Source: Mesostigma viride (lineage: Eukaryota > Streptophyta > Mesostigmatophyceae > Mesostigmatales > Mesostigmataceae). From it: 64,000 nt of DNA. Position 1 is the stretch's first letter. The number at the start of each line of letters is the position of its first letter. The position numbers and the translations under genes were made by a program. Of the stretch, positions 8,811-53,600 are shown one piece after another. Under the pieces are notes generated by a model that ran no database searches, had not been told where the DNA came from, and was given only the letters and a program-made list of their open reading frames with translations. The DNA lies in the NCBI GenBank assembly GCA_009746045.1, contig RPFO01001933.1, positions 2,501-66,500 of the forward strand, written 5' to 3'.

Positions 8811-8824
8811 CCAACGGCCGTTGG
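8811..8824. promoter_or_regulatory. Palindrome upstream of ATG 8746
   Basis: CCAACGGCCGTTGG, the array unit nearest the gene, 64 nt from the proposed ATG at 8746. A degenerate half copy (CGGCCGTT) sits at 8770-8777. The regulatory role is inferred from recurrent position. Confidence 0.5.
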
Positions 8825-9240
8825 CGCAAGAAAAATCACACCCTAATTTCCAGGTTCCAACGGCCGTTGGCGCAAGAAAAATCACACCCTAATTTCCAGG
8901 TTCCAACGGCCGTTGGCGCAAGAAAAATCACACACTAATTTCCAGGTTCCAACGGCCGTTGGCGCAAGAAAAATCACACCCTAATTTCCAGGCTCCAACG
9001 GCCGTTGGCGCAAGAAAAATGTCGACCGAATTTCCAGGTTCCAACGGCCGTTGGCGCAAGAAAAATATCAACCAAATTTCCAGGTTCCAACGGCCGTTGG
9101 CGCAGGAAAAATGACACCCTAATTTCCAGGTTCCAACGGCCGTTGGCGCAAGAAAAATCACACACTAATTTCCAGGTTCCAACGGCCGTTGGCGCAAGAA
9201 AAATCACACCCTAATTTCCAGGTTCCAACGGCCGTTGGCG
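8811..9240. repeat. 10-copy 46-bp palindrome array
   Basis: Ten copies of a 46-bp unit, each carrying CCAACGGCCGTTGG followed by GCGCAAGAAAAATCACACCC and TAATTTCCAGG. It fills the space between the stop of the 405-aa gene (9256) and the start of the next co-oriented gene (8746). In translation the palindrome reads PTAVG, QRPL or SNGRW on both strands, which explains the spurious repeated peptides here. Confidence 0.95.
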
Positions 9241-9255
9241 CAAGAAAAATAACAT

Positions 9256-10473
9256 CTAGTGCCTAAAACGTTCCCACACCCGATCCGTTATATTTACCTT
9301 TTGCGTCCGCATGTCCTTCATGGGCGGGATCAGTGCTTCCCCCTCCACCTCCCAGCCCTTGAGCACGTCCAGATTGGTGTACTTGAACTTCTCCGCGTCC
9401 CTCACCAACCCCCTCCACAAATCAAACGCCTCGTCGGTTGTCTCCACGAACTTGCCCTTTTGTTTACCCGCAATCTCGCCAGCTATCGCAGTACTCACTT
9501 GCTCGTCAGAGCCCTCGAAAATCACGGACTTCAACATCTGTGTGTAGTGGTTGCCGTCCAGCACGGCAAACTGCACAAACACGCAAGGCGTCTGGTCTCG
9601 AAATTTACCCTTAAGGCCGGCATGGTCCGAGATGTTCAAGCTCCCCAGCGCGGATTTCGTCAGGTCAACTACTGCCTCACGCTCAGATTCATTTGACCAC
9701 TCGGACGGATCCAACTCCATGGTGATCAACTCGTCTGAGCAAGCGGCCGCCATGTCCTTCAGGGAGTCCGTCCGGAGAATGGACATGGCTTCCTCGGCCG
9801 TTGGCGAACGATAGTATCCGAACCTCTGCACGGCACGGTCACTGTCGTCCCCCGTCAGTATTTTAATGTGGTAAGGAACCTTTTCACTCCTCTGCACCCA
9901 TAAATTGTAGAGACCTGGATCACGGTCTGCCAGCACCTGCCACGCAAACCGGAAGATCGGCACGGCACATTTTGCTTTTGTCAGACTTGTGCCGGCCCCC
10001 ACGAACCACGGCGCGAGCCCCCTACAATTCCGCACCGTCACCGTCCGGTGCCGCATGAGTTCCGGGAGTTGGCACAAGTTCTCCGTGGGGGCCCGTACTT
10101 GAGTCGCAATCGCGGACCCCCCCACGATGTCGACATCGTCTGGAACTAGGCGTATCTTCTGCCGCAGATGAAACGCCGCCTGTATGGTGTCAGTTAGATT
10201 CTTGTCGTGCACTTGAGAGGACGGCGCTGGCTCCCAGGAGTCCAAAATGCTGGGCTTCGCATTTCCAGCACGTGTCGTCAGCAGCCCCTTCCTCTCAAAG
10301 GTCTTCACAATAACCGACCATAAGTCGGTGCCCGGTGCTCGTTGGCGCCAGTCCTCAAAAAATGTTGTGAGATGCCTTTCCGAACAGTTATGTTCAATCT
10401 TGTAAGCCCACTTCCTCCGCTCTTCGTCCGTTCTCTGCCTTGACGGACGCCCCTGATCACATGCAAAAAACAT
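9256..10473 (-). CDS. Unknown 405-aa protein
   Basis: Single uninterrupted frame from ATG at 10473 (MFFACDQGRP...) to TAG at 9256, the cleanest long gene in the window. I see no signal peptide or membrane segment. The N-terminal third is basic and rich in Arg/Lys (RQRTDEERRKW). The middle has a Trp/Phe-rich stretch, PWFVGAGTS, and the C-terminal half is acidic and mixed. I do not recognise the family. The start is chosen because the only in-frame ATG upstream of the conserved-looking region lies 29 nt from a CCAACGGCCGTTGG copy, the same arrangement as at other genes. Palindrome arrays flank it on both sides, and the next gene is co-oriented. Codon use looks normal for this window, without G-run breaks. 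Confidence 0.7.
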   Translation of the reverse strand: MFFACDQGRPSRQRTDEERRKWAYKIEHNCSERHLTTFFEDWRQRAPGTDLWSVIVKTFERKGLLTTRAGNAKPSILDSWEPAPSSQVHDKNLTDTIQAAFHLRQKIRLVPDDVDIVGGSAIATQVRAPTENLCQLPELMRHRTVTVRNCRGLAPWFVGAGTSLTKAKCAVPIFRFAWQVLADRDPGLYNLWVQRSEKVPYHIKILTGDDSDRAVQRFGYYRSPTAEEAMSILRTDSLKDMAAACSDELITMELDPSEWSNESEREAVVDLTKSALGSLNISDHAGLKGKFRDQTPCVFVQFAVLDGNHYTQMLKSVIFEGSDEQVSTAIAGEIAGKQKGKFVETTDEAFDLWRGLVRDAEKFKYTNLDVLKGWEVEGEALIPPMKDMRTQKVNITDRVWERFRH

Positions 10474-10502
10474 ACAGATAGCCGGAAGGTCAGTACTATG
10501 TT

Positions 10503-10516
10503 CCAACGGCCGTTGG
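10503..10516. promoter_or_regulatory. Palindrome upstream of ATG 10473
   Basis: CCAACGGCCGTTGG 29 nt from the start codon, the first unit of the 19-copy array that extends away from the gene. Confidence 0.5.
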
Positions 10517-11338
10517 CGACAGAAAAATAACACCCTAATTTCCAGGTTCCAACGGCCGTGGGCGCATGAAAATCACACCCTAATTTACAGGTTCCAACGG
10601 CCGTTGGCGCATGAAAATCACACCCTAATTTCCAGGTTCCAACGGCCGTTGGCGACAGAAAAATAACACCCTAATTTCCAGGTTCCAACGGCCGTTGGCG
10701 CATGAAAATCACACCCTAATTTTAAGGTTCCGACGGCCGTTGGCGCATGAAAATCACACCCTAATTTACAGGTTCCAACGGCCGTTGGCGCATGAAAATC
10801 ACACCCTAATTTACAGGTTCCAACGGCCGTTGGCGCATGAAAATCACACCCTAATTTCCAGGTTCCAACGGCCGTTGGCGACAGAAAAATCACACCCTAA
10901 TTTCCAGGTTCCAACGGCCGTTGGCGCGAGAAAAATGACACCCTATTTTCCAGGTTCCAACGGCCGTTGGCGCGAGAAAAATCACACCCTATTTTCCAGG
11001 TTCCAACGGCCGTTGGCGCATGAAAATCACACCCTAATTTCCAGTTTCCAACGGCCGTTGGCGCGAGAAAAATGACACCTTCATTTCCAGGTTCCAACGG
11101 CCGTTGGCGACAGAAAAATAACACCCTAATTTCCAGGTTCCAACGGCCGTTGGCGCATGAAAATCACACCCTAATTTTAAGGTTCCGACGGCCGTTGGCG
11201 CATGAAAATCACACCCTAATTTACGGGTTCCAACGGCCGTTGGCGCATGAAAATCACACCCTAATTTCAAGGTTCCGACGGCCGTTGGGCAAAAAAAAAA
11301 TAACACCCTAATTTCCAAATTGCAACGGCCGTTGGCGC
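10503..11338. repeat. 19-copy ~45-bp palindrome array
   Basis: About 19 units of 44-48 bp, each with CCAACGGCCGTTGG (a few CGACGGCCGTTGG), then GCGCATGAAAATCACACCC, or GCGACAGAAAAATAACACCC, or GCGCGAGAAAAATGACACCC. The linkers come in at least three types in mixed order, including a repeated multi-unit block, so the array has grown by duplication of groups of units. It ends by running into the hexamer array. Confidence 0.95.
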
Positions 11339-11342
11339 AAGA

Positions 11343-14300
11343 AAATCAAGCAAGAAAAGGACAAGGACAAGGACAAGGACAAGGACAAGGACAAGGACAA
11401 GGACAAGGACAAGGACAAGGACAAGGACGAGGACAAGGACAAGGACAAGGACAAGGACGAGGACAAGGACAAGGACAAGGGCAAGGACAAGGACAAGGAC
11501 AAGGACAAGGACAAGGACAAGGACAAGGACAAGGACAAGGACAAGGACAAGGACAAGGACAAGGACAAGGACAAGGACAAGGACAAGGACAAGGACAAGG
11601 ACAAGGACAAGGACAAGGACAAGGACAAGGACAAGGACAAGGACAAGGACAAGGCAAGGACAAGGACAAGGACAAGGACAAGGACAAGGACAAGGACAAG
11701 GACAAGGACAAGGACAAGGACAAGGACAAGGACAAGGACAAGGACGAGGACGAGGACAAGGACAAGGACAAGGACAAGGACAAGGACGAGGACGAGGACG
11801 AGGACAAGCACAAGGACAAGGACAAGGACAAGGACAAGGACAAGGACAAGGACAAGGACAAGGACAAGGACAAGGACAAGGACAAGGACAAGGACAAGGA
11901 CAAGGACAAGGACAAGGACAAGGACAAGGACAAGGACAAGGACAAGGACAAGGACAAGGACAAGGACAAGGACAAGGACAAGGACAAGGACAAGGACAAG
12001 GACAAGGACAAGGACAAGGACAAGGACAAGGACAAGGACAAGGACAAGGACAAGGACAAGGACAAGGACAAGGACAAGGACAAGGACAAGGACAAGGACA
12101 AGGACAAGGACAAGGACAAGGACAAGGACAAGGACAAGGACAAGGACAAGGACAAGGACAAGGACAAGGACAAGGACAAGGACAAGGACAAGGACAAGGA
12201 CAAGGACAAGGACAAGGACAAGGACAAGGACAAGGACAAGGACAAGGACAAGGACAAGGACAAGGACAAGGACAAGGACAAGGACAAGGACAAGGACAAG
12301 GACAAGGACAAGGACAAGGACAAGGACAAGGACAAGGACAAGGACAAGGACAAGGACAAGGACAAGGACAAGGACAAGGACAAGGACAAGGACAAGGACA
12401 AGGACAAGGACAAGGACAAGGACAAGGACAAGGACAAGGACAAGGACAAGGACAAGGACAAGGACAAGGACAAGGACAAGGACAAGGACAAGGACAAGGA
12501 CAAGGACAAGGACAAGGACAAGGACAAGGACAAGGACAAGGACAAGGACAAGGACAAGGACAAGGACAAGGACAAGGACAAGGACAAGGACAAGGACAAG
12601 GACAAGGACAAGGACAAGGACAAGGACAAGGACAAGGACAAGGACAAGGACAAGGACAAGGACAAGGCTGGACAAGGACAAGGACAAGGACAAGGACAAG
12701 GACAAGGACAAGGACAAGGACAAGGACAAGGACAAGGACAAGGACAAGGACAAGGACAAGGACAAGGACAAGGACAAGGACAAGGACAAGGACAAGGACA
12801 AGGACAAGGACAAGGACAAGGACAAGGACAAGGACAAGGACAAGGACAAGGACAAGGACAAGGACAAGGACAAGGACAAGGACAAGGACAAGGACAAGGA
12901 CAAGGACAAGGACAAGGACAAGGACAAGGACAAGGACAAGGACAAGGACAAGGACAAGGACAAGGACAAGGACAAGGACAAGGACAAGGACAAGGACAAG
13001 GACAAGGACAAGGACAAGGACAAGGACAAGGACAAGGACAAGGACAAGGACAAGGACAAGGACAAGGACAAGGACAAGGACAAGGACAAGGACAAGGACA
13101 AGGACAAGGACAAGGACAAGGACAAGGACAAGGACAAGGACAAGGACAAGGACAAGGACAAGGACAAGGACAAGGACAAGGACAAGGACAAGGACAAGGA
13201 CAAGGACAAGGACAAGGACAAGGCTGGACAAGGACAAGGACAAGGACAAGGACAAGGACAAGGACAAGGACAAGGACAAGGACAAGGACAAGGACAAGGA
13301 CAAGGACAAGGACAAGGACAAGGACAAGGACAAGGACAAGGACAAGGACAAGGACAAGGACAAGGACAAGGACAAGGACAAGGACAAGGACAAGGACAAG
13401 GACAAGGACAAGGACAAGGACAAGGACAAGGACAAGGACAAGGACAAGGACAAGGACAAGGACAAGGACAAGGACAAGGACAAGGACAAGGACAAGGACA
13501 AGGACAAGGACAAGGACAAGGACAAGGACAAGGACAAGGACAAGGACAAGGACAAGGACAAGGACAAGGACAAGGACAAGGACAAGGACAAGGACAAGGA
13601 CAAGGACAAGGACAAGGACAAGGACAAGGACAAGGACAAGGACAAGGACAAGGACAAGGACAAGGACAAGTGCTGGACAAGGACAAGGACAAGGACAAGG
13701 ACAAGGACAAGGACAAGGACAAGGACAAGGACAAGGACAAGGACAAGGACAAGGACAAGGACAAGGACAAGGACAAGGACAAGGACAAGGACAAGGACAA
13801 GGACAAGGACAAGGACAAGGACAAGGACAAGGACAAGGACAAGGACAAGGACAAGGACAAGGACAAGGACAAGGACAAGGACAAGGACAAGGACAAGGAC
13901 AAGGACAAGGACAAGGACAAGGACAAGGACAAGGACAAGGACAAGGACAAGGACAAGGACAAGGACAGGACGAGGACGAGGACAAGGACAAGGACAAGGA
14001 CAAGGACAAGGACAAGGACAAGGACAAGGACAAGGACAAGGACAAGGACAAGGACAAGGACAAGGACAAGGACAAGGACAAGGACAAGGACAAGGACAAG
14101 GACAAGGACAAGGACAAGGACAAGGACAAGGACAAGGACAAGGACAAGGACAAGGACAAGGGCTGGACAAGGACAAGGACAAGGACAAGGGCTGGACAAG
14201 GACAAGGACAAGGACAAGGACAAGGACAAGGACAAGGACAAGGACAAGGACAAGGACAAGGACAAGGACAAGGACAAGGACAAGGACAAGGACAAGGACA

Positions 14301-15088
14301 AGGACAAGGACAAGGACAAGGACAAGGACAAGGACAAGGACAAGGACAAGGACAAGGACAAGGACAAGGACAAGGACAAGGACAAGGACAAGGACAAGGA
14401 CAAGGACAAGGACAAGGACAAGGACAAGGACAAGGACAAGGACAAGGACAAGGACAAGGACAAGGACAAGGACAAGGACAAGGACAAGGACAAGGACAAG
14501 GACAAGGACAAGGACAAGGACAAGGACAAGGACAAGGACAAGGACAAGGACAAGGACAAGGACAAGGACAAGGACAAGGACAAGGACAAGGACAAGGACA
14601 AGGACAAGGACAAGGACAAGGACAAGGACAAGGCTGGACAAGGACAAGGACAAGGACAAGGACAAGGACAAGGACAAGGACAAGGACAAGGACAAGGACA
14701 AGGACAAGGACAAGGACAAGGACAAGGACAAGGACAAGGACAAGGACAAGGACAAGGACAAGGACAAGGACAAGGACAAGGACAAGGACAAGGACAAGGA
14801 CAAGGACAAGGACAAGGACAAGGACAAGGACAAGGACAAGGACAAGGACAAGGACAAGGACAAGGACAAGGACAAGGACAAGGACAAGGACAAGGACAAG
14901 GACAAGGACAAGGACAAGGACAAGGACAAGGACAAGGACAAGGACAAGGACAAGGACAAGGACAAGGACAAGGACAAGGACAAGGACAAGGACAAGGACA
15001 AGGACAAGGACAAGGACAAGGACAAGGACAAGGACAAGGACAAGGACAAGGACAAGGACAAGGACAAGGACAAGGACAAGGACAAGGA
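11343..15088. repeat. 3.7-kb GGACAA hexamer array
   Basis: About 620 copies of GGACAA. Rare variants are GGACGA near 11429-11800 and 13970, a GGGCAA, a GCACAA, and GGCTGGACAA interruptions near 12665, 13222, 13672, 14160, 14190 and 14633. The interruptions shift the phase. All six frames therefore contain very long open stretches (Gly-Gln, Asp-Lys, Thr-Arg; Leu-Ser, Pro-Cys, Val-Leu) that I do not treat as genes. Both edges carry the linker GCGCAAGAAAATCA of the palindrome array. Confidence 0.98.
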
Positions 15089-17730: not shown

Positions 17731-17869
17731 TGTTTTGCGGCATCAAGTTTCAAAGTACGTACTGGGATACCCTTCGCCAGCCTGCTTGGCATCCAGGATA
17801 AGATCTTGGAACCAGTAAGGGGGCTTCGCTTGCTGCGGCAGATGGTGCAATCCATTGTGATCTGCGCGC

Positions 17870-18449: not shown

Positions 18450-18873
18450 TTACATGATATACATCCTAGTCATTATGGTCCTATACAAACGCCAGAAGGG
18501 CCGAATACCGGTTTAATTGGATCTTTAGCTACGCATAGTAAAGTAAATGAATATGTTTTCTTGTCCTTTTTATACATTACAAAAAAATCAAGTAATTAAA
18601 AGTGAAATACCTATTTTTATACCTCCACATCAACAAGATCAATTTAAATTCGCCCCAGAATATTTATTACTTTCTTGTTACTCTAGTGTTGAAAATAATT
18701 ATGTTCATGTGCGATATAAACCAGAATTTAGTAGTAAAGCAGAAGAAGTCGATTATTTGGGGATTTCTCCAACGCAAGCTTCAATAGCTACTTCATTTAT
18801 TCCCTTGGTGGAACATGATGATGCAATCCGAGCATTAATGGGTTGTAATATGCAAAGACAAGCAGTTCCATGA
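18450..18873 (+). pseudogene. rpoB: Plastid rpoB fragment in nuclear DNA
   Basis: AT-rich sequence whose translation carries hallmarks of the bacterial/plastid RNA polymerase beta subunit: [23 protein letters not shown] and VNEY, then [20 protein letters not shown] and NMQRQAVP. The fragment covers only a short central piece of a protein that is normally over 1,000 residues. The four residues usually following HPSHYG are missing (PIQTPEGP follows directly). A frame change occurs near 18550-18600, between VNEYVF and the PFY-like segment. The fragment stops at TGA right after AVP. It therefore looks like a nuclear plastid insertion (NUPT) in decay. The flanks are repeat and ordinary nuclear-type DNA, so an intact plastid contig is unlikely. 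Confidence 0.85.
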
Positions 18874-20743: not shown

Positions 20744-20757
20744 TCAACGGCCGTTGG
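20744..20757. promoter_or_regulatory. Palindrome upstream of ATG 20690
   Basis: TCAACGGCCGTTGG, one end base changed, 53 nt from the start codon. A second copy, CCAACGGCCGTTGG, lies about 22 bp further upstream near 20779-20792. Confidence 0.5.
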
Positions 20758-20884
20758 CCCTGTTAAATTCCACACATCCCAACGGCCGTTGGCCTTAGAC
20801 GCACAAAACTTGACACCATCAGGCGATTTTTTCCAAATGATTCTTCTTTATTAAATAAATTTACATTCATCCTAAAATCACATT

Positions 20885-21229
20885 CTAGTCAACATCCTCC
20901 CCATCTTTAGTGGGTTGCATTCGACCCCAATTGTCGTTCATAAAACTGACCAAAACATGAGCCGGAGTCCCCACATCCTCCTCACGCCTCAATTTACGCA
21001 ATACACCTTTAGCAATTCCACCATACCCATCAACCTCCGACATCATCATGCCCACGCCATCAAGACGTTCAGCGTGCAATTGCCCGTCCTCTTCGAGAAC
21101 CAGATCGGGCAGGTCTTCCAGTTCGGCCTCCACAATCTCTATCAGGTTTTCCTTTGTAGTCTCCCCCCCTTCCTTTCCTTCTTTTCCGCACTCCATCCTA
21201 CACCCTGCCCCTGCACAACCGACGTCCAT
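20885..21229 (-). CDS. Small acidic protein, 114 aa
   Basis: ATG at 21229 to TAG at 20885. The N-terminus MDVGCAGAGCRMEC begins like the neighbouring zinc modules (C-x4-C) but lacks the final C-x2-H, so the motif is degenerate or truncated. The rest is acidic and helical (IEIVEAELEDLPDLVLEEDG), ending GEDVD. The palindrome sits 44 nt upstream. It could be a shortened paralogue of the adjacent Cys/His genes; that is inference from position and the partial motif. Confidence 0.5.
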   Translation of the reverse strand: MDVGCAGAGCRMECGKEGKEGGETTKENLIEIVEAELEDLPDLVLEEDGQLHAERLDGVGMMMSEVDGYGGIAKGVLRKLRREEDVGTPAHVLVSFMNDNWGRMQPTKDGEDVD

Positions 21230-21273
21230 GGCAAGTTAAGAAACGGACTCAGCTCACAGGACATTTTGCAAGT

Positions 21274-21287
21274 CCAACGGCCGTTGG
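21274..21287. promoter_or_regulatory. Palindrome upstream of ATG 21229
   Basis: CCAACGGCCGTTGG, 44 nt from the start codon and 14 bp beyond the stop (21301) of the gene upstream. It is the only evident motif in a 71-bp intergenic gap. Confidence 0.5.
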
Positions 21288-21300
21288 CGACCAAAAACAC

Positions 21301-22082
21301 CTAGTCGCATGCATTCCTTGCTCTCTCCACCAAAGCAGAGGCCAGGACGACCCTTTCCACGACCTTTTCAATTTCCTCCCCCTCAGCATCAGCAACAACG
21401 GTCATGGCAAATCGGGCTTGGCGCTTAACCCCCGATGCCAGAACGGCAGCCATCTCCACACGAGTTTTTGAGACTTCAACAGGTACAGGCAATTCGCCGA
21501 CCGCAAAAGTAAGCCTTGCGAGGTGCGGGACCCACCAATCACCTTCCAAAAATCCGCAACCCCATCCAATCATGAAATACAACAACAGGTCTGCGCCCAT
21601 GGCGCCTGCGATATCCAAGTCGTCATGCGAAACAATCGCATGCACGTCATCCTCCGAGCACAGCATCCATGTAAAAACGGCGTCCCCGAAACCTTGGCAG
21701 TAGGCATACGAGTCAAAGTCAGGGTGATTCAACATCCATTCCCGCGACCTGACCGCCATTCTTTCCAGACTTCCAGCACTGTCCACCTCAAAACTCAGGA
21801 CAAGAGGTCCTTCACCAGCACTGGACTCGCCATGCACAAACAACAAGCCTCCTTTGATCACCTCTTGCATCTCCCCTGACAACTTGGCGTGTCCATCACA
21901 AAAAGGCATGCAATCCGTCCCGAATGGAAGCTGGCAATCCCGGGCGATACACCCCCCTTTTTTGCAAACAAATCCTTCACCCTCCCTGCCATTCCCGTTC
22001 GCACGCTGACATGACGCACGCACAAGTCATCCCCTCCTGCTCTCGCTTCCTGGCACCACGCAACCGTGCATTTGACCGCCAT
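21301..22082 (-). CDS. Cys/His-motif protein, ~260 aa, one G-run frame break
   Basis: ATG at 22082 (MAVKCTVAWCQ). Residues 5-22 form C-x4-C-x10-C-x2-H. After the coding-strand A6G6 run (21952-21963) the frame shifts. The following frame carries a second cluster, C-x4-C-x11-C-x2-H (CIARDCQ ... CDGH), then a long folded-looking domain, and stops at TAG 21301. The two clusters flank the run and match the two-cluster design of the 19110-19891 gene, so a single protein is the better reading. The G run would need one more G (or two fewer). The central part has Trp/Gly-rich segments (GWGCGFLEGDWW). Function is unknown. The palindrome is 39 nt upstream of the ATG. Confidence 0.6.
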
Positions 22083-22121
22083 CTGCGACCACCAACACCG
22101 TTTGATACACATTTCTCACCG

Positions 22122-22135
22122 TCAACGGCCGTTGG
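22122..22135. promoter_or_regulatory. Palindrome upstream of ATG 22082
   Basis: TCAACGGCCGTTGG, 39 nt from the start codon, within TTTCTCACCGTCAACGG context that is repeated at the next gene (23042). Confidence 0.55.
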
Positions 22136-22264
22136 CTTGAAACAACAAGAATGATTTATTACTCGCACGAAAATCACACCATTTTCCAGCCTCCAACGGC
22201 CGTTGGCGCACGAAAAATGCACGAAAAAAATTTTTATTATGCATTTATTGATTACATCCATAGT

Positions 22265-22274
22265 GCCACGTGGC
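22265..22274. promoter_or_regulatory. G-box-like palindrome GCCACGTGGC
   Basis: Perfect 10-bp palindrome with the CACGTG core recognised by plant-type bZIP and bHLH factors. It recurs at 23181-23190 at the equivalent place in the duplicated intergenic region. Function is not demonstrated. Confidence 0.4.
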
Positions 22275-22383
22275 GAATCACACCCAACTTTCCAGCTGCC
22301 AACGGCCGTTGGCGCAAAGAAAATCAAACCCTAATTTGCAGGTTCCAACGGCCGTTGGCGCAAAGAAAATCACACCCAACACT

Positions 22384-23001
22384 TCAGTCGCATAATCGAT
22401 TCGCGTCAGTCACGCACTCGAACTTGTACTCCTGCCCCAGCGCGGACATCACCTCACGAACCGCTTTCTCAAACTCGTCAACACCGTCGGGTCCCCACTC
22501 ATGCACGTATTCCCTCAACCAGAACATGCAATCTCCAGCAGACACGAACAGCCGGTCGATGATCAGGTCAGTGTGATGCTTGAAGTACTTGCCGTCCTTC
22601 AAGATGACCCATTCGAACCGTCCCACCTCCCCTAAACCCTTAAACCCTTCTCCCCTATCATATGGCCGCGTCATCTGTATCCAACTTTCATTACCATCAG
22701 CATCGATCGACTGAAAACAAATTGGGCTGGGTATTGATGGATCATAGGGCCTTATAGCACCACACCTCACAAGCACCTCCTCAAATGGCTCTACGGTCGG
22801 GTTTGGGAGTCCCCGACCCTCGATATTGAAAACAAGAGCCGCGGCCTTCGCGACATCCGGTTTCAAAAGAGACCTTTCACCCTCCTTGGGCTTAAAATCC
22901 AGCTTAATGTCCGGCAGAAGCCTGAGCGCGCTCTTAACCACTCCCAGAAGCCTGTCTTCCAAGTTGATCCACTCGCCCCCCTCCGTCCTGTAGAACGTCA
23001 T
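22384..23001 (-). CDS. Unknown 205-aa protein
   Basis: ATG at 23001 (MTFYRTEGGEW) to TGA at 22384, uninterrupted. It is globular-looking and acidic with no Cys cluster. Segments such as WINLEDRLLGVVKSALRLL and FEWVILKDGKYFKHHTD suggest a folded alpha/beta protein, but I recognise no family. Its last ~30 codons and the 3' flank recur as a relic at 23283-23380. The palindrome is 40 nt upstream of the ATG, in a 5' flank almost identical to that of the 22082 gene. Confidence 0.6.
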   Translation of the reverse strand: MTFYRTEGGEWINLEDRLLGVVKSALRLLPDIKLDFKPKEGERSLLKPDVAKAAALVFNIEGRGLPNPTVEPFEEVLVRCGAIRPYDPSIPSPICFQSIDADGNESWIQMTRPYDRGEGFKGLGEVGRFEWVILKDGKYFKHHTDLIIDRLFVSAGDCMFWLREYVHEWGPDGVDEFEKAVREVMSALGQEYKFECVTDANRLCD

Positions 23002-23041
23002 CTGCAACCCACCGACACCGTTTGATATACATTTCTCACCG

Positions 23042-23055
23042 TCAACGGCCGTTGG
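23042..23055. promoter_or_regulatory. Palindrome upstream of ATG 23001
   Basis: TCAACGGCCGTTGG, 40 nt from the start codon. The surrounding sequence ACACCGTTTGATA...CATTTCTCACCG matches the 22122 site almost base for base. Confidence 0.55.
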
Positions 23056-23282
23056 CTTGAAAAAACAACAAGAATTTTAAGATTTATTACGCGCACAAAT
23101 CACACACTAGTTTTCAGTCTCCAACGGCCGTTGGCGCACGAAAAATGTTTTATTATGCATTTATTAATTACATCCATGGTGCCACGTGGCAAACCACACC
23201 CTACTTCCGGTTGCAAAGAAAATCAAACCCTAATTTGCAAGTTCCAACGGCCGTTGGCGCAAGAAAATCACACCCAAAATTT

Positions 23283-23380: not shown

Positions 23381-23385
23381 TCCCC

Positions 23386-24230: not shown

Positions 24231-24244
24231 CTAACGGCCGTTGG
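24231..24244. promoter_or_regulatory. Palindrome upstream of ATG 24176
   Basis: CTAACGGCCGTTGG, 54 nt from the start codon. It is the gene-proximal unit of the ~206-bp satellite. Confidence 0.5.
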
Positions 24245-26550
24245 CTCACAACCCCCCTGTGGGAAGGGTGGATGCCTTACGAACCATTCAACCACATCTT
24301 TATGCTCAGCTAGATTTTTGGAGGCCTTTCTTGGAAGGCACATGGTAATAACCATCACTAAGCTGCATAAAAGACACATCCTGCCTTACTGCCACCAAAT
24401 GAAACGAATGAAATGCACATGGTAATGTTTTTCAAGTCTAACGGCCGTTGGCTCACAACCCCCCTGTGGGAAGGGTGGATGCCTTACGAACCATCCAACC
24501 ACATCTTTATGCTCAGCTAGATTTTTGGAGGCCTTTCTTGGAAGGCACATGGTAATAACCATCACTAAGCTGCATGAAAGACACATCCTGCCTTACTGCC
24601 ACCAAATGAAAAGAATGAAATGCACATGATAATGTTTTTCCAATTCCAACGGCCGTTGGCTCACAACCCCCCTGTGGGAAGGGTGGATGCCTTACGAACC
24701 AGTCAAGCCCCATCTTTATGCTCAGCTAGATTTTTTGGAGGCCTTTCTAGGAGAAAAATGGTAAATAGCCACCACTAAGCTGCATAAAAGACACATCCTG
24801 CCTTATTGCCACCCAATTAAACGAATGAAATGCACATGGTAATTTTTTCAAGTCCAACGGCCGTTGGCTCACAACCCCCGTGTGGGAAGGGTGGATGCCT
24901 TACGAACCATTCAACCACATCTTTATGCTCAGCTAGATTTTTGGAGGCCTTTCTTTGAAGGCACATGGTAATAACAATCACTAAGCTGCATGAAAGACAC
25001 ATCCTGCATTATTGCCACCAAATGAAACGAATGAAATGCACATTTTATTGTATTTCCAATTCCAACGGCCGTTTGCTCACAACCCCCCTGTGGGAAGGGT
25101 GGATGCCTTACGAACCATTCAACCACATCTTTATGCTCAGCTAGATTTTTGGAGGCCTTTCTTGGAATAAAAATGGTAATAGCCACCACAAAGCTGAATG
25201 AAAGATACATCCTGGCTGATTGCCAACCCACTCAAAGGAATGAAATGCACATGATAATGTTTTTCAAGTCCAACGGCCGTTGGCTCACAACCCCCCTCTG
25301 GGAAGGGTGGATGCCTTACGAACCATTCAACCACATCTTTATGCTCAGCTAGATTTTTGGAGGCCTTTCTTGGAAGAAAAATGGTAATAGCCACCACTAA
25401 GCTGAATGAAAGATACATCCTGGCTGATTGCCAACCCACTCAAAGGAATGAAATGCACATGATAATGTTTTTCAAGTCCAACGGCCGTTGGCTCACAACC
25501 CCCCACTGGGAAGGGTGGATGCCTTACGAACCAGTCAAGCCCATCTTTATGCTCAGCTAGATTTTTGGAGGCCTTTCTTGGAAGAAAAATGGTAATAGCC
25601 ACCACTAAGCTGAATGAAAGATACATCCTGGCTGATTGCCAACCCACTCAAAGGAATGAAATGCACATGATAATGTTTTTCAAGTCCAACGGCCGTTGGC
25701 TCACAACCCCCCTCTGGGAAGGGTGGATGCCTTACGAACCAGTCAAGCCCATCTTTATGCTCAGCTAGATTTTTGGAGGCCTTTCTTGGAAGAAAAATGG
25801 TAAATAGCCACCACTAAGCTGCATGAAAGACACATCCTGCCTTATTGCCACCAAATGAAACGAATGAAATGCACATGATAATGTTTTTCAAGTCTAACGG
25901 CCGTTGGCTCACAACCCCCCTGTGGGAAGGGTGGATGCCTTACGAACCAGTCAACCACATCTTTATGCTCAGCTAGATTTTTGGAGGCCTTTCTTGGAAG
26001 CACATGGTAATAGCCACACTAAGCTGCATGAAAGACACATCCTGCCTTACTGCCACCCAATGAAACGAATGAAATGCACATGATAATGTTTTTCCAATTC
26101 CAACGGCCGTTGGCTCACAACCCCCCTGTGGGAAGGGTGGATGCCTTACGAACCAGTCAACCCATCTTTATGCTCAGCTCGATTTTTTGGAGGCCTTTCT
26201 AGGAGAAAAATGGTAAATAGCCACCACTAAGCTGCATAAAAGACGCATCCTGCCTTATTGCCACCCAATGAAACGAATGAAATGCACATGATAATGTTTT
26301 TCCAATTCCAACGGCCGTTGGCTCACAACCCCCCTGTGGGAAGGGTGGATGCCTTACGAACCAGTCAAGCCCATCTTTATGCTCAGCTAGTTTTTTTGGA
26401 GGCCTTTCTAGGAGAAAAATGGTAAATAGCCACCACTAAGCTGCATGAAAGACACATCCTGGCTGCTTGCCACCCTATCAAACGAATAAAAAGCACATGA
26501 TAATGTTTTTCCAATTCCAACGGCCGTTGGCTCACAACCCCCTTCGGGTA
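24231..26550. repeat. 12-copy ~206-bp palindrome-bearing satellite
   Basis: Twelve units with palindromes near 24231, 24438, 24647, 24853, 25063 (altered to GGCCGTTTG), 25269, 25477, 25686, 25894, 26100, 26307 and 26518. Each continues GCTCACAACCCCCCTGTGGG and ATTTTTGGAGGCC. The last unit is truncated and diverged. Repeated minus-strand frames of 66-100 codons reflect the ~206-bp unit and are not counted as genes. The array lies directly 5' of the MYND gene at 24176. Confidence 0.95.
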
Positions 26551-26559
26551 GAGGCCTTA

Positions 26560-27452
26560 CGGACCAGTCAGAAATGGTGTCCACCAAGCTATTCCCCCCA
26601 CACCCACAGTTGTCCTTGTCCACATACCTTTCCAGTACAGTTGTCCTCAGCTTCTCAGCAACGGGCGACTCCTCTCCTTCTTGATGCCTTGACAGATATC
26701 ACATAAACAAAACACGATCACGAGAGCATCAGGATTGTTAGAGGTTTCCTCCATCAACGACCGTAAGATACACACACCTCAAAAACCAACTTTCTTGTCC
26801 TCCCAAATAACATATGTTTTTAAATGTAAAATAAATCACATTCATATTCTGTCACTTGATTTAACCACACAATTGTTCAGGTCCAACGCCCGTTGGCATT
26901 ACGCCTCTTCCCGGTAAAATACTATTTATTGCTCCAACCCCACAAGAAACTCGTTCCGGACCTGTTCGAAGCGAAGAGCACTGCCAGGGATCGGAGTCGA
27001 GCCAGATTTGTGTGCGGAACATGATGGCTGGCCTACCTGGTGTGGAGCAATAATGTCGACATTTTCAGTGACTGTTCAGCCTAAAAAAATAACAAGCAGA
27101 TGCGACGGCCCCTCCATTAAACAAATTATCCACCACTGTTGCGCTACACTAGCAATGTTTGTCAAGGTCCAACGGCCGTTGGCATCAAATAAATCACAAC
27201 CATTGGTCACTCCATTTAACCAATACCCACAACTTTTTAACCACACTAGAAATGTTTTTTGAGGTCCAACGGCCGTTGGAATCCAAAAAATGCCGAATTC
27301 ATGTCAAATTTATATAAATGTGACAGTTGACAGAATTAGAGATAATTAAATCATCAAATCCAGCTTTAGCCATCAGCCTTACCCATCAGCAAAAATTGGC
27401 GAATTTCATTCAATATTAGAATTCAAAATTTACTAATGAAATTTATGTTTCA
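26560..27452. other. Intergenic DNA with single palindromes
   Basis: AT-rich sequence holding CCAACGCCCGTTGG (degenerate, ~26883), CCAACGGCCGTTGG (~27172) and another (~27269). The last two are each preceded by GAGGT or AAGGT. No gene seen. Confidence 0.5.
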
Positions 27453-30441: not shown

Positions 30442-30455
30442 CTAACGGCCGTTGG
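30442..30455. promoter_or_regulatory. Palindrome 5' of the F-box gene
   Basis: CTAACGGCCGTTGG, 121 nt upstream of ATG 30320, farther than at the other genes. Confidence 0.35.
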
Positions 30456-30724: not shown

Positions 30725-31501
30725 CTATGAGGAAGAACCGTAGTAGAAGGTGAAGGAGAAGTCGACCTCAGAGAAGTCGACCTGAGTTCCATCCAGTATG
30801 GTCGTCCTGTTTACCCCCCTTATCACCCCTGCCAGCCCCTCCCTTGCTTGCCTCAGACGTTCGCATCTATCCTTATGCCTACTCCAGTCAGCACGCTGGC
30901 ACTCCTCACTGCAATATCTGGCATCCCTACATCCTCTACACCACTTCTGAGGGCCTGTTTGGCACCCACACCCCTCCTTGGAGCAATTTCGCATACCACG
31001 CATGGGGTCCCCATCCCTCACGATCGGGTCAGAGAGCAAGAAAAGGTTCATGTTGAGGGGTACTTCTGCCCCTACACACGCGTCAGCCCTCACGCGCAGG
31101 GAAGACGTAACATTCGGGTAAAATGCGCGCCCGTAGGTGCACCCAACCTGAGCCCCTTCCTCTTCCCCCAACTCTATCTTTGGCCCCTTTGTAATGAACG
31201 ACACCAAAAGGCGGAACTCCCTCGTTGGGTCTATTGGCGCTCTTAGATCCATCTGTGGTACGAAAAAACCCTGTTGAATACAGAAGTTCATATCAGCTAG
31301 CTGGGCGTACACAACCCTCTCCATTTGGCTGAACGAATCAAACGCCAATAAAACGGCCAAGTGGCGGCCTGTCTTCTCCTGCGCGACACGAACTTCCTCG
31401 AATATGACACGCGACAGGAAGCGAACTTGTTTGTAAACGTTTTGAAGGACGCTTCCGTAGACTTCATTCACGATCTCGGACTCATTCGCGATCTCGGCCA
31501 T
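30725..31501 (-). CDS. MYND zinc-finger protein, 258 aa
   Basis: ATG at 31501 (MAEIANESE) to TAG at 30725, uninterrupted. The N-terminal domain has LAVLLAFDSFSQMERV, DMNFCIQQGFFVP and PTREFRLLVSFI, shared with the 23386-24176 gene and otherwise unrecognised. A complete MYND finger lies at residues ~175-215: C-x4-C, then CRGC, RYCSEEC, and H-x3-C. The family binds zinc and usually docks Pro-rich partner peptides. The C-terminal tail after the finger is short and ends in aromatic/Ser residues. No CCAACGGCCGTTGG occurs within 500 bp upstream, unlike the paralogue. This intact copy supports the single-protein reading of the frameshifted one. Confidence 0.8.
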   Translation of the reverse strand: MAEIANESEIVNEVYGSVLQNVYKQVRFLSRVIFEEVRVAQEKTGRHLAVLLAFDSFSQMERVVYAQLADMNFCIQQGFFVPQMDLRAPIDPTREFRLLVSFITKGPKIELGEEEGAQVGCTYGRAFYPNVTSSLRVRADACVGAEVPLNMNLFLLSDPIVRDGDPMRGMRNCSKEGCGCQTGPQKWCRGCRDARYCSEECQRADWSRHKDRCERLRQAREGLAGVIRGVNRTTILDGTQVDFSEVDFSFTFYYGSSS

Positions 31502-32034: not shown

Positions 32035-32420
32035 CCAACGGCCGTTGGCATTACAGCAATGAAGTTAAGATAAAAACGTCGTAATGCAACGGCTGATAAA
32101 ACTGGCGTATAATCAATAACGCAAAAAAAATTGGCAAGAACTTTTTTTTGGAGGTCCAACGGCCGTTGGCATCACGTAAATCACAACAGCAATGATGGAA
32201 ACTGATTTTGCAAGTCCAACGGCCGTTGGCATCAAGAAAATCAGAAGAGGGAGCGACTGCCCAAAAAACGCATAATAATAAAACAAGTACCTTGCAGGTG
32301 GTTGACAGACGCGAATCTTGTGTGGCGACGTGGAATCTGCAAGGAATGCGCAAAAACGTTGCAATCAGAATTACAAGGATTACATATTTTCCACATTTAG
32401 TTTTTCAGGTCCAACGGCCG
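32035..32420. promoter_or_regulatory. Four single palindromes in intergenic DNA
   Basis: CCAACGGCCGTTGG at 32035-32048 and near 32157, 32217 and 32411. Each is followed by GCAT, and the last three are preceded by AGGT or AAGT. Spacing is irregular (about 60-195 bp), so this is not a tandem array. Confidence 0.5.
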
Positions 32421-32504
32421 TTGGCATGAGATTAATAAGAATACCACTACATGCGTGTGAGAAAATTGTGCCGGGTGACAGAATTAAATCCAAGTTGCCC
32501 AGCA

Positions 32505-45000: not shown

Positions 45001-47800
45001 ATACCTAGGGGGGGGGCTGGCATGCATAAATACATGTGGGGGGTGCTGGCATGCATAAATACCTAGGGGGGGTGCTGGCATGCATAAATACCTAGGGGGG
45101 GTGCTGGCATGCATAAATACCTAGGGGGGGTGCTGGCATGCATAAATACCTAGGGGGGTGCTGGCATGCATAAATACCTAGGGGGGGTGCTGGCATGCAT
45201 AAATACCTAGAGGGGGTGCTGGCATGCATAAATACCGAGGGGGGGTGCTGGCATGCATAAATACCTAGGGGGGTGCTGGCATGCATAAATACCTAGGGGG
45301 GGGGCTGGCATGCATAAATACCTAGGGGGGGGGCTGGCATGCATAAATACCTAGGGGGGGTGCTGGCATGCATAAATACCGAGGGGGGGTGCTGGCATGC
45401 ATAAATACCTAGGGGGGGGCTGGCATGCATAAATACGTGGGGGGTCGCTGGCATGCATAAATACCTAGGGGGGTGCTGGCATGCATAAATACCTAGGGGG
45501 GGTGCTGGCATGCATAAATACCTAGGGGGGGGCTGGCATGCATAAATACCTAGGGGGGGTGCTGGCATGCATAAATACCTAGGGGGGGGCTGGCATGCAT
45601 AAATACGTCGGGGGGGTCGCTGGCATGCATAAATACCTAGGGGGGTGCTGGCATGCATAAATACCTAGGGGGGTGCTGGCATGCATAAATACCTAGGGGG
45701 GGGGCTGGCATGCATAAATACCTAGGGGGGGTGCTGGCATGCATAAATACCTAGGGGGGTGCTGGCATGCATAAATACCTAGGGGGGGGGCTGGCATGCA
45801 TAAATACCGAGGGGGGGTGCTGGCATGCATAAATACCGAGGGGGGGTGCTGGCATGCATAAATACCTAGGGGGGGTGCAGGCATGCATAAATACCGAGGG
45901 GGGGTGCTGGCATGCATAAATACCTAGGGGGGGTGCTGGCATGCATAAATACCTAGGGGGGGGGCTGGCATGCATAAATACCTAGGGGGGGGCTGGCATG
46001 CATAAATACCTAGGGGGGGTGCTGGCATGCATAAATACCTAGGGGGGGTGCTGGCATGCATAAATACCTAGGGGGGGGGGCTGGCATGCATAAATACGTC
46101 GGGGGGTCGCTGGCATGCATAAATACCTAGGGGGGGTGCTGGCATGCATAAATACCTAGGGGGGGTGCTGGCATGCATAAATACCTAGGGGGGGGGCTGC
46201 CATTCGTACCTTTTTTTCTTTTTTTATTTTTAAGCCGGCCTGGGGCAGCGGCGGCGGGTGGACGAAAACTGATAGCATTCCCGTTCGTGCATCCCGTGAC
46301 CACCGGCCACCAAACGGAGGCACGACACCAAGGCAGATCAAGCACCAAAGGAAGCAGCAAGGACGTTGACGTTATTAACCAAGAATGGGGGTGCTGGCAT
46401 GCATCAATACCTAGGGGGGGTGCTGGCATGCATAAATACATGTGGGGGGTGCTGGCATGCATAAATACCTAGGGGGGGGCTGGCATGCATAAATACCTGG
46501 GGGGTCGCTGGCATGCATAAATACGTCGGGTGGGGTGCTGGCATGCATAAATACCTAGGGGGGTGCTGGCATGCATAAATACCTAGGGGGGGTGCTGGCA
46601 TGCATAAATACCGAGGGGGGGGGCTGGCATGCATAAATACCTAGGGGGGGTGCTGGCATGCATAAATACCTAGGGGGGGGGCTGGCATGCATAAATACGT
46701 CGGGGGGTCGCTGGCATGCATAAATACGTCGGGTGGGGTGCTGGCATGCATAAATACCTAGGGGGGTGCTGGCATGCATAAATACCTAGGGGGGGGGCTG
46801 GCATGCATAAATACCTAGGGGGGGTGCTGGCATGCATAAATACCTAGGGGGGTGCTGGCATGCATAAATACCTAGGGGGGGGGCTGGCATGCATAAATAC
46901 CGAGGGGGGGTGCTGGCATGCATAAATACCTAGGGGGGTGCAGGCATGCATAAATACCTAGGGGGGGTGCTGGCATGCATAAATACCTAGGGGGGTGCTG
47001 GCATGCATAAATACCTAGGGGGGGTGCTGGCATGCATAAATACCTAGGGGGGGGGCTGCCATTCGTACCTTTTTTTCTTTTTTTATTTTTAAGCCGGCCT
47101 GGGGCAGCGGCGGCGGGTGGAGGAAAACTGATAGCGTTCCCGTTTGTGCATCCCGTGACCACCGGCCACCAAACGGAGGCACGACACCAAGGCGGATCAA
47201 GCACCAAAGGAAGCAGCAAGGACGTTGACGTTATTAACCAAGAATGGGGGTGCTGGCATGCATAAATACGTCGGGTGGGGTGCTGGCATGCATAAATACC
47301 TAGGGGGGTCGCTGGCATGCATTAATACGTCGGGTGGGGTGCTGGCATGCATAAATACCGAGGGGGGGTGCTGGCATGCATAAATACATGTGGGGGGTGC
47401 TGGCATGCATAAATACCGAGGGGGGGTGCTGGCATGGATTAATACGTCGGGGGGTGCTGGCATGCATAAATACCGAGGGGGGGTGCTGGCATGCATAAAT
47501 ACATGTGGGGGGTGCTGGCATGCATAAATACGTCGGGGGGGTGCTGGCATGCATAAATACCTAGGGGGGGTGCTGGCATGCATAAATACCTAGGGTGGGG
47601 TGCTGGCATGCATAAATACCGAGGGGGGGTGCTGGCATGCATAAATACCGAGGGGGGGTGCTGGCATGCATAAATACCTAGGGGGGGTGCTGGCATGCAT
47701 AAATACCTAGGGTGGGGTGCTGGCATGCATAAATACCGAGGGGGGGTGCTGGCATGCATAAATACCTAGGGGGGGTGCTGGCATGCATGAAAAAAGGTGG
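33009..47800. repeat. ~14.8-kb array of a ~29-bp minisatellite
   Basis: About 430 copies of a 27-31 bp unit: a run of 5-10 G followed by TGCTGGCATGCATAAATACC and TA, CGA, GTC or ATGT variants before the next G run. Unit length varies almost only in the G run. Variant types (CTAG, CGAG, GTCG, CTAGAG, CTATG, ATGTG) recur in the same order at distance, showing block duplications. All minus-strand frames with MHASTPPRYLCMPAPP are repeat artefacts. Ten ~200-bp unrelated units are embedded, listed separately. Confidence 0.98.
35751..47246. repeat. Ten embedded ~200-bp units within the 29-bp array
   Basis: Type A starts TTCAGCTGCCAYTCGTACC and has CTGTTTTTATTTTTTAATGG; copies start near 35751, 36765, 39947, 40968, 42749 and 43769. 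Type B lacks TTCA and has TTTATTTTTAAGCCGGCC; copies start near 39207, 42002, 46196 and 47056. Both share GGCAGCGGCGGCGGGTGGA, CATCCCGTGACCACCGGCC and a GACGTTGACGTTATTAACC end. They are 97-99% alike by eye within type. No coding, tRNA-like or TE-terminal feature is recognised. Confidence 0.9.
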
Positions 47801-48440
47801 TGGGGTGCTGGCATGCATAAATACATGTGGTGTGGTGCCGCCATGCATAAATACATGTGCCAGCAAACCTGAGCTGCAAGGGAGCGAGAAAACCAAGAAA
47901 AAAAGCACGCAACACACCACGCGTCGTACCTTTTTATAGATGTTTCTTTTTTTTTATGGGGCCGGCCGGGGGCGGCGGTGCCGGCAAAAATGAAGCTAGT
48001 GACACCGCGCAGATGACGCCGTGAACATGTCGCGTTGTACCGTAGAAGATACGAACAAAAAACAAAACACGAAAAAAGAGAGGCGGACCGCATATGACAG
48101 GGACGAAAAAAAGTCAGACACACAGCCTGTGTTATCTGGCATGCATAAATACATGTGGTGTGGTGCCGGCATGCATAAATACATGTGCCAGCAAACCTGA
48201 GCTGCAAGGGAGCGAGAAAACCAAGAAAAAAAGCACGCAACACACCACGCGTCGTACCTTTTTATAGATGTTTCTTTTTTTTTATCCTTGTCCTTCGGGG
48301 GCAGCGGCGGCGGGTGGAAGAAAACTGATAGCGTTGTTGTGCATCCCGTGACCACCGGCCACCAAACGGAGGCACGACACCAAGGCAGATCAAGCACCAA
48401 AGGAAGCAGCAAAACATCAACGTTAGTAACCAAGAATGGG
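47801..48440. repeat. Degenerate border of the minisatellite with a 330-bp duplication
   Basis: The segment with CATGTGCCAGCAAACCTGAG, CTGCAAGGGAGCGAGAAAAC and CGCGTCGTACCTTTTTATAG occurs at ~47815-47960 and again at ~48146-48285. Each is followed by a diverged copy of the embedded ~200-bp unit; the second keeps CATCCCGTGACCACCGGCC. This is probably an older edge of the array. Confidence 0.75.
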
Positions 48441-50035: not shown

Positions 50036-50547
50036 TCCAACGGCCGTTGGGTGTCTAAAATGCATGCGTTAGCGTGTTTCCGGCCCGCTTTCAGGGGCCC
50101 AACGGCCGTTGGACGTCGAAAATGCATGTGTTGGCGTGTTTTCGGCCCGCTTTCAGGGGTCCAACGGCCGTTGGGTGTCGAAAATGCATGTAAAGGGCGT
50201 GTTTCAGGCCCACTTTCAGGGGTCCAACGGCCGTTGGGTGTAGAAAATGCATGTGTTGGCGTGTTTTCGGCCCGCTTTCAGGGGTCCAACGGCCGTTGGG
50301 TGTCGAAAATGCATGTGTTGGCGTGTTTCAGGCCCACTTTCAGGGGTCCAACGGCCGTTGGGTGTCGAAAATGCATGTGTTGGCGTGTTTTCGGCCCGCT
50401 TTCTGGGGTCCAACGGCCGTTGGGTGTCGAAAATGCATGTGTTGGCGTGTTTCAGGCCCACTTTCGGGGGTCCAACGGCCGTTGGGTGTCGAAAATGCAT
50501 GTGTTGGCGTGTTTCAGGCGTACTTTCAGGGGTCCAACGGCCGTTGG
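50036..50547. repeat. 9-copy ~62-bp palindrome array
   Basis: Nine units with CCAACGGCCGTTGG at about 50036-50049, 50099, 50161, 50224, 50286, 50347, 50409, 50471 and 50534. Linkers are GTGTCGAAAATGCATGTG, TTGGCGTGTTT and CCCRCTTTCAGGGGT. The array lies directly 5' of the transposase-like gene. Confidence 0.95.
50534..50547. promoter_or_regulatory. Palindrome upstream of ATG 50618
   Basis: CCAACGGCCGTTGG, last array unit, 70 nt before the proposed start codon of the transposase-like gene. Confidence 0.45.
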
Positions 50548-50617
50548 GACCTACAAATTGGGTAATTGTTGGAAAGCAATAATTTGATAAAAAGTCAAAA
50601 CTTCGTCTGGATTCTGT

Positions 50618-53600
50618 ATGCGCGCGGATGCAGGTGAAGCGCACAACAAAGACCTAAGTCTCAAGTACGTCGAGATCAAGGGCAACCAACTTGCCCTCGA
50701 CATGGCCAGCGCAATGGAATACTTGCTGAAGGACAACAATCACAAGACTGAAAACACGAAAACTGCAGTAGGCTTGAGGGCGCTTGAGCGGCTGCCAGGT
50801 GCGGTTGTGAAGGTTATGGGGAAACAGTACCGCCCTGCGCTGAAAAGAAAGGCGTCGGAGTCCTTCGCTCAGGAGGTTGTCGCTAATATCGTGCAAGGTT
50901 TCCAGGAATTGGGCAAGTCGGATGAGCACAGGAACGCGAAGTGCGCTGTGCTGTCAATGTGCTTGGGAAAGGACGGCATGAACAATCAAGGGCATTGCAC
51001 TCTCGCGCGGCTGCTTCACGTCACGCCCAAGGATATCCAGACCGCAAGGGGAATGAGGATGGGGGGCGACCTTCCCGCCCTGAAGGCGCCCCCTCGTGCT
51101 TTACGGTCGGACAAGTTTCCGGAGGAGGTCAAAGACATCGTCGGGAGTTACTGGTTGTCAGACCTAAACACGAGGGCGTCTCCCAACCATAAGGACGTGG
51201 TCAATGAGTTCGAAAGGAAGGGAAACGCCAGGATCCTCATTTCCTCCCAGGGCGGAAGGTACTATTTGGACTCGCTTGAAACGATTTACAAGCGGTTCTG
51301 TTCTGACGCGTCGCCGTACAAGGGAGGTATCGTGACGACTGCGGACGGGACAAGGTACAAGGTGGGGTACACGAAGTTCGTGGAGTTCATGCCCAAGTGC
51401 GTAAAGGGCGTGTGGAAGGACCGGGACTTGTGCGCATGCGAAAAGCACGTCGTCTTCGAGTCTCTGCTCTCTGCCTTCGCCAAAGGCGTCAAGGAGTTGA
51501 AGAGCACGCTGGAGATCGAGGAGAGGGAGGGTATCCCTTCCGTGCCTGACAATGCCCATGATTTCGTTCGACGTTTCACCTGCCACAGGGCTGAGAGGGG
51601 GGAGGGGGGGCAAGGAGGGGGGAGGACGGGCGGCCCGTTCGTTAACGTCCCAATGAACTGCTTGGAAGGGACGTGCAACGAGTGTGGGATTTCCGAGTTC
51701 ATCGTGACGGACCAGATGAAGGGGTGGACAAAGAAGTACACGTGGTTCGACTTCATAAAGGAGGGCACAGCGCCCCGTGGGACGGTAAGCATGTATATTT
51801 GCATCGTTGAATATATATATGTAGACTTTCATACTTCCAACGGCCGTTGGCGTTGGGAAATTCCCAGCTGCTGACTTCCATTCTTCGGTCAATCCATGGT
51901 GCGCGGGCATGTATATTTGCATCGTTGAATATATATATGTAGACTTTCATACTTCCAACGGCCGTTGGCGTTGGGAAATTCCCAGCTGCTGACTTCCATT
52001 CTTCGGTCAATCCATGGTGCGCGGGTGTGTTGTGTTGCAGGAGGAGGATGTGGCGCCGCAAATGAACCTGCAGCAAAAACTCATCAAGTCAACCCTCTCG
52101 GAGCTCCATGAACTCATTACGGCGCGCTTCCCGGAATTCGCCATTCACGTCCATACATGGGCCTGGCAGCACCACGCTTACAAGGAGTGCATTGACGTGA
52201 TGCCGCTGGGAACGGTGGTGGTCCTGATGGACTACTCGGAGAACTATTCGGACCACCTGCAGAAACAGTTGCAGGCGCAGTACTGGTACCCAAGTAGTTA
52301 CGTCCTGATGCCGGTGATCGTGATGTACCGTGATCCCGTATCGCTGGAAATCAAAAGGGTGAAGCACGATTACATGGGGAAGGACGTACCGAGGAATGCC
52401 CAGACCCTGGAGTTCGTGATGAAGAATACCCTTAACGTGCTGAGGGAGGAGGGGGTGGAGGTGAGGAACTGGATCAGTTGGTCCGACAACTGTAAGGAGC
52501 AGTTCCAATCCCGGTATGTGTTGGCGATGGCTGCGGACCTGCTCGAGGCCGACCCCGACTTGGAATCATTGGAGTGGAACTACTCGTGTGCAGGACATGG
52601 GAAGGGGGAGTCGGACGGGGAGGGGGGGACGGTCAAAAGCATCCTCAAAAGAGCGCAGATGCAGGAGGACAATCGGAACCTGAATACGGTGGAGGCACTG
52701 GTGGCCTACCTGAACCGGGATTGGAGAACCGGCAAAGACTCGAGTCGACCATCGGCACAATCGGACGTGGTTCGACGGGCATTTCTTCTCGATAACGTAA
52801 GTAAAGACAGTTGCTTTCTGGTGGTCAAGTGCAGTTCTATAATTTGTCTCTGGTTACACTTTACAGAGGACAGCTTCCTTGATGCAGTTTGAAGTTTCAT
52901 AAGGCCAACGGCCGTTGGAGCTGGAAAATCGTATAATTGTTGAGTGCCAACGGCCGTTGGAGTTGAGAAATGTACTTATATAAAGTTTCCAAGGGCCAAC
53001 GGCCGTTGGAGTTGGGAAATCTTATAATTGTTGAGTGCCAACGGCCGTTGGAGTTGGGAAATGTGCTGTGATGTTGTTTCATGGATTTACAATTGCAGAT
53101 TCTCACGTCCGGTAAGGAGCGAGGCCCGATCCGAGATATCTCCACGGCACACCAGTGGCGACTGGACAAAAAGGGCGAGCGGGTCGAGGTGGTAAAGCTC
53201 AGGCGTTTTTCATGCTTCAGTTGTGCGGAGTGCCGAGAGGGCAAGTGGACGACATGCCCAAACGATTGGAGCAGCTCGTCGTGGACTGTAAAACTCCAGG
53301 CGAGTAAGTCGCGGAACCCCACGCGATATCCGGGAACCCGCCTGAACCACGTTCAAACGGCAAGAAACGAGTTGGGGCGTGGTTTGCAGGAGGGGGAGGC
53401 CGTCGCAGTCGCATCTGAGAGGGGGCACAAGGACCATGTGCCCGACCACCCGTACTGGTTGGCGAAAGTTGTTCGAGTCGCCCACCAACTCGACAAGGAT
53501 GAGTGTTTAAACAAACATACAGGGGGGGGGGCGAGGTTTTTAAGAAAGGCAACTGGGTAATGTACGTAAAATACTTCGAGAGGTGCTCCTCCTCCGGATC

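Follow-up and report, generated by a model that had tools for sequence, protein, structure and literature searches.

The 14-bp palindrome CCAACGGCCGTTGG, which recurs throughout the window (the whole 64,000-nucleotide stretch of the Mesostigma viride contig RPFO01001933.1 analysed here), is probably the core of an operator or enhancer specific to one family of giant mobile elements, read by a putative dimeric protein that is either encoded by the element or co-evolving with it. Direct support comes from the two-fold symmetry of the site, its fixed internal spacing, the confinement of the examined sites to one element family, an excess close upstream of start codons in one gene cluster, and the use of a different word by a sister family. 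From the sequences we infer that a protein binds the site, that the element encodes this protein, and that the binding controls transcription.

Results

A two-fold symmetric site of about 34 bp

The window contains 76 copies of CCAACGGCCGTTGG (61 exact, 15 with one mismatch and none with two), where dinucleotide shuffles predict 0.46 matches. The conserved unit extends beyond the 14-mer. Reducing 158 half-sites from the window and loci L008 and L012 to 48 that share less than 60% identity outside the core left the following consensus in each half: CCGTTGG; a fixed gap of 6 nt, with a pyrimidine at position 10 (42/48); and an RAAA tract (R14 in 43, A15 in 37, A16 in 42 and A17 in 43 of the 48). 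Beyond the RAAA tracts, T occupies position 19 in 26 of the 48, and past that position the composition is that of the background. The site is thus ~34 bp long, a 14-bp core flanked on both sides by RAAA. At least three of the four RAAA letters are present in 123 of the 142 window half-sites (background 9.5%), and sliding the test by +3 to +6 lowers the count to 7–18 of 142. The A tracts would stand ~16 bp (1.5 helical turns) away from the dyad, and a symmetric site of this length suits binding by a symmetric protein, for which it is a candidate site.

Core letters within arrays differ at 0/100, 0/90, 0/110 and 4/190 positions, against 5, 10, 21 and 14.5% in the flanks; because the last two flank values (21 and 14.5%) are inflated by ungapped columns and the flanks adjoining the core are conserved too in the 208-bp array, we kept this comparison out of the main evidence. 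The exact 14-mer had no match in the parts of the literature that could be searched, where a 10-mer occurred only in papers unrelated by title, and Rfam and tRNA scans of the window gave no matches. A single palindrome pair in each of three other contigs, two from related phages and one from a Bacteroidales MAG, was set aside as coincidental and terminator-like.

Confinement to one family of giant mobile elements

The initial annotation had proposed counting the 14-mer across the genome. In 439,911,974 bp (2,243 contigs) we found 9,685 exact copies and none of the reversed control, and 12,162 copies with at most one mismatch (control 88), which by arithmetic corresponds to ~1.7% change per site. 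The 50 sites listed among these matches form three clusters, all within the first 5.09 Mb of contig C1: 42 lie in stretches aligned to the window (L009–L011), five (2.195–2.198 Mb) were attributed to the element from their spacing and one MYND match only, and three (2.101 Mb) from synteny only. Eight further listed places comprise three in window-like sequence and five in the context typified by L008 and L012. In the places checked, a small fraction of all palindrome copies, the examined sites are, as judged by sequence similarity, confined to one giant mobile-element family. Forty loci around copies of genes A and B hold 614 exact and 91 one-mismatch palindromes.

By the same comparisons, the window is one copy of a previously unrecognised giant mobile element. 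Its left end is sharp, with five copies in different flanks meeting at 4818; L063 has the same letters there, and the flanks differ between copies. The left-end 27-mer occurs 187 times genome-wide at up to two mismatches (control 0). The gene A exon has at least 107 copies at 83–100% identity (107 scored of 952 candidates); since left ends outnumber the scored copies of gene A, many element copies are partial. On at least 14 contigs, genes A and B share one relative orientation and are separated by 21–81 kb; their copies are mostly 97–100% identical. On the right, it is within a 40-bp array that the window, L064 and L065 depart from the element, each at a different point, and the true right end was not found. 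The L008/L012 context, which lies 25–93 kb beyond gene B and is oriented alike on C1, C1679, C1920, C1546 and C2 (gene B being only partial on C1546 and C2), suggests an element unit above ~75 kb. With one end known, the reverse complement of the left 12–30 bases is absent from the window.

Several other features lie within the element. Positions 55995–57788 are an insertion nested in the element and bearing long direct repeats; L064, L065 and L009 lack it and present a clear empty site; similar repeats occur at 15936–17740. A 29-bp array of ~514 units fills 33008–47854, and the palindromes flanking it are 17.6 kb apart in the window vs. 28.8 kb in the C1 copy. By eye, 18460–18880 resembles a plastid rpoB fragment, and both L008 and L012 carry a plastid tRNA-Ser-like piece.

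Positions of the sites relative to genes

Tandem arrays hold most of the copies, with units that differ in length (46, 45, 208, 62, 118 and 42/49 bp) and in sequence, and the initial annotation had covered a small part of the copies (Table 1). Two probable introns of gene A (8683–9300 and 10453–15137, from predicted gene models) hold 29 palindromes and the spacers of a minus-strand gene cluster hold 25 (20691 to 27452); nine lie upstream of gene B and six between its coding parts; and the others are found at 30442 (one), 31927–32508 (four) and 53926 (one). The palindrome at 7105 is the single one inside an open reading frame, the other 75 of the 76 being outside accepted reading frames. Altogether the sites span ~47 kb of introns, spacers and positions before genes.

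Table 1. Features of the element and groups of palindromes in the window
Feature	Positions	Strand	Remarks
Element left end (GGGGGGGCCCACAATC...)	4818..4860	.	Similarity of L061, L062 and L011 begins or ends exactly at 4818
46-bp tandem array	8811..9238	.	10 exact palindromes; probable gene A intron (9300-8683)
Gene A exon	9301..10452	-	384 aa; no Pfam match
45-bp tandem array	10503..11335	.	19 palindromes (14 exact); probable gene A intron also holding an AAGGAC array
Ten palindromes in four spacers	20744..23257	.	Head-to-tail minus-strand cluster (starts 20690, 21229, 22082, 23001)
208-bp tandem array	24231..26530	.	12 palindromes; 54 nt upstream of start 24176
Three single palindromes	26883..27279	.	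26883 with one mismatch
Single palindrome	30442..30455	.	13/14
MYND-finger gene	30725..31501	-	zf-MYND E=8.7e-08; multicopy; sister-family homologue L068:1499-2254
Four single palindromes	32035..32424	.	First is 108 nt upstream of start 31926
62-bp tandem array	50037..50547	.	9 exact palindromes; ends 70 nt before start 50618
Gene B	50618..53560	+	Probable exons 50618-51786, 52041-52796 and further
118-bp tandem duplication	51837..51968	.	Two palindromes; probable first intron of gene B
Four exact palindromes	52905..53051	.	Between gene B coding parts
Last palindrome of the window	53926..53939	.	
40-bp array	57839..60900	.	Junction with unrelated DNA in window, L064 and L065

Eight start codons had been proposed to carry the 14-mer at gaps of 64, 29, 53, 44, 39, 40, 54 and 70 nt. 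The arithmetic is correct; only four of the eight sites are exact, those at 20744, 22122, 23042 and 24231 being 13/14 variants, and the starts at 8746 and 10473 are probably intronic, given the in-phase GT-AG junctions 15137/10453 and 9300/8683 (by eye) that join 15138, 10452–9301 and 8682. Within the cluster (19–32.5 kb), five of nine genes have a site 25–75 nt upstream of the start, where 1.18 are expected (P=0.0015), and with a duplicated spacer removed the figure is four of eight starts (P=0.006); the test covers nine genes of our own predicted set, in one cluster of one element copy. Downstream of the cluster stop codons there is no excess (3/9, P=0.58). Promoter proximity is real for some sites only, about half of the sites being in tandem arrays or introns and not in promoters. 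What stands of the shared control element suggested earlier is that recurrence beyond chance, two-fold symmetry and the start-proximal excess in the cluster make control in cis plausible.

A sister family with a different word

A second family in the same genome combines 46% paralogues of gene B with MYND-gene relatives at 86–90%, and the relative orientation of the two is the same as in the first (for example at 1.343/1.365 Mb of C1 and 5.537/5.565 Mb of C2). Its word was read from one copy, in two stretches (L067 and L068; 6,302 bases). These contain no CCAACGGCCGTTGG palindrome, the best matches having 4 and 5 mismatches, and hold instead 12 copies of AAACGNC-N2-6-GGCGYAAC (in short, AAACGMC-N4-GGCGYAAC), all 12 opposite to the coding strand. 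Conversely, the sister word has no copy in the window or in loci L004–L066.

The two words occupy comparable places. Two sister words lie in a 72-bp tandem duplication between gene B coding blocks, the place matched in the first family by the 118-bp palindrome duplication; one sister word begins 112 nt upstream of the L068:1040 start, and another likewise 112 nt upstream of a start at L068:2561 (by eye, in a broken frame). Genome-wide, one variant of the sister word occurs 2,579 times (control 1) and another 209 times (control 0). Of the 100 places listed for the first variant, a hand count puts 60 no more than 2 kb from a sister MYND match, and the other 40 are not near the MYND matches listed (147 of 952 candidates). 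A host factor would be expected to recognise the same word in both families; that each family has its own, at comparable places, favors a binder linked to the element.

Genes and proteins of the element

Gene models were predicted from sequence, and several frames break at homopolymers; those of gene A seem broken at homopolymer runs (~7428 and ~8205; region 7425–8213), possibly by sequencing errors. The predicted structure of the gene A exon was set aside (pLDDT 34.2). Between the window and L011 (the C1 5.09-Mb copy), up to 50 of 100 positions differ, gaps included, within 9560–9960 of this exon, with 0–10 differences per 250 in its surroundings; differences by codon position (34/31/43) do not indicate purifying selection, and the divergence may reflect diversification or recombination in one domain.

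The gene B exon gave 150 scored matches (of 705 candidates), 132 at 69–100% identity and 18 at 46%. Gene B may encode an RNase H-like enzyme: in Foldseek, the model of its second exon (pLDDT 44.6) had one match at E≤0.001 (UvrC), the others being weaker. Relatives of gene B were not confirmed in viral contigs or found among PDB sequences. Among the element proteins tested against Pfam, MYND fingers were the only domain to pass. Small proteins encoded at 19319–22082 and L068:708-1040 have no Pfam match and show, in most rows, a C-x4-C...C-x2-H pattern; these Cys-rich proteins are candidates for the binding protein.

Discussion

Our analysis suggests that a ~34-bp symmetric site belongs to one giant mobile-element family of an algal nuclear genome, where a dimeric DNA-binding protein, encoded by the element or co-evolving with it, would occupy it. 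Single sites just upstream of element genes would control their transcription, and the further copies and arrays within introns or spacers would serve to increase occupancy or to titrate the protein.

The palindrome had been interpreted as a promoter element built on MYB-type AACGG half-sites and shared by unrelated genes. In its most specific form, this interpretation makes the site a host MYB3R/MSA-type element, with a host R2R3-MYB reading the AACGG halves and the genes placed under cell-cycle control. Each half does contain CCAACGG; AACGG is the core of MSA sites, which in the available part of one source occur in several copies near promoters and, in the promoter of a MYB3R target, run in either direction (PMC8964727); and the promoter-proximal excess in one cluster resembles that arrangement. 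However, a protein reading single halves should leave free ones, and CCAACGG/CCGTTGG outside palindromes occurs 5 times in the window vs. 11.7 expected (first-order Markov model), so enrichment of half-sites as such does not hold; the 14-bp core, obligate and invariant, together with an A tract at a fixed distance on either side, goes beyond the MSA core; and all 50 listed C1 sites lie in mobile-element clusters rather than at many unrelated host genes, with the sister element of the same nucleus carrying another word. A host-wide regulon is not supported by these last observations, and we consider control by a host MYB unlikely.

Also improbable, in our judgement, is a role in movement or upkeep of the element rather than in transcription, in which the site would serve a transposase or a replication or partition protein in the manner of an iteron. 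The arrays, with one palindrome per 45–62 bp unit, resemble iterons; the EBNA1 sites in the family of repeats of EBV oriP, as described in the source text available, are likewise clustered protein-binding sites of a mobile or viral genome; and the second exon of gene B has an RNase H-like, albeit poor, model. The Ac/Ds (hAT) elements offer a further parallel, as the available text of PMC3260210 describes repeated subterminal AAACGG hexamers bound by the transposon's own protein, short AACGG-containing sites like those found here. The hexamers of Ac, however, are described there within the terminal 200 bp, whereas the first site here (7105) is 2.3 kb inside the left end and hence not subterminal, and the site is palindromic and spread over introns and spacers. 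Dispersal over ~47 kb, including positions before genes, likewise differs from oriP.

It is very unlikely that the palindrome spread passively as a satellite or MITE-like sequence, a fragile or self-amplifying palindrome seeding tandem duplications with no bound protein. In nearly all contexts there is tandem amplification, by a unit peculiar to the context, and array copy number varies (10 cores at 8811–9238 in the window vs. 16 in L011). A MITE should nevertheless bring along the 6-nt gaps and the flanks of a uniform short element, whereas the 48 half-sites share core and RAAA only, and the word of the sister family, though analogous, is a different one. A signal in RNA, a hairpin for splicing, 3′ processing or termination, is scarcely credible: CCAAC-GGCC-GUUGG could fold into a 5-bp stem, sites occur in introns and spacers, and the sister word keeps one orientation relative to genes, but the letters stay fixed where covariation would be expected, pairing across the 6-nt gaps follows no rule, and sites show no excess past stop codons.

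We return to an element-specific operator as our preferred reading. The apparent host promoter motif then becomes a marker of an unrecognised giant element with at least ~130 copies of gene B, and a nucleus that houses two sister families, whose comparable positions carry different words, provides a clean test case for element-specific control. More tentatively, it is possible that each giant-element family has a private symmetric operator word, arrayed in its spacers and introns and read by its own protein. Such a private code would liken element families to related phages and plasmids, whose operators do not cross-react; if true, private words would give element families a means of regulating, recognising or excluding one another, and if a cognate protein binds each word, the families would possess a phage-like operator system in eukaryotic giant transposons.

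The element can be set beside the giant eukaryotic transposons reviewed in the available text of PMC6431247 (Polintons, Teratorn, Terminons and Helitrons). Like these, it is very large, multigene and multicopy, with internal tandem repeats, and the same multigene unit recurs in many places with a precise left end and unrelated flanks; by contrast, with its left end located, it has yielded no terminal inverted repeats, no target-site duplication and no known enzyme of transposition. The same genome has at least 150 scored matches to the NCLDV capsid (PF04451; of 507 candidates), many near-identical, which may represent a large population of virus-like elements. On C1 the capsid matches lie at 4.45 Mb, outside the palindrome clusters, with none placed inside the element there; on C1546 they fall between fragments of genes A and B, where nesting is possible.
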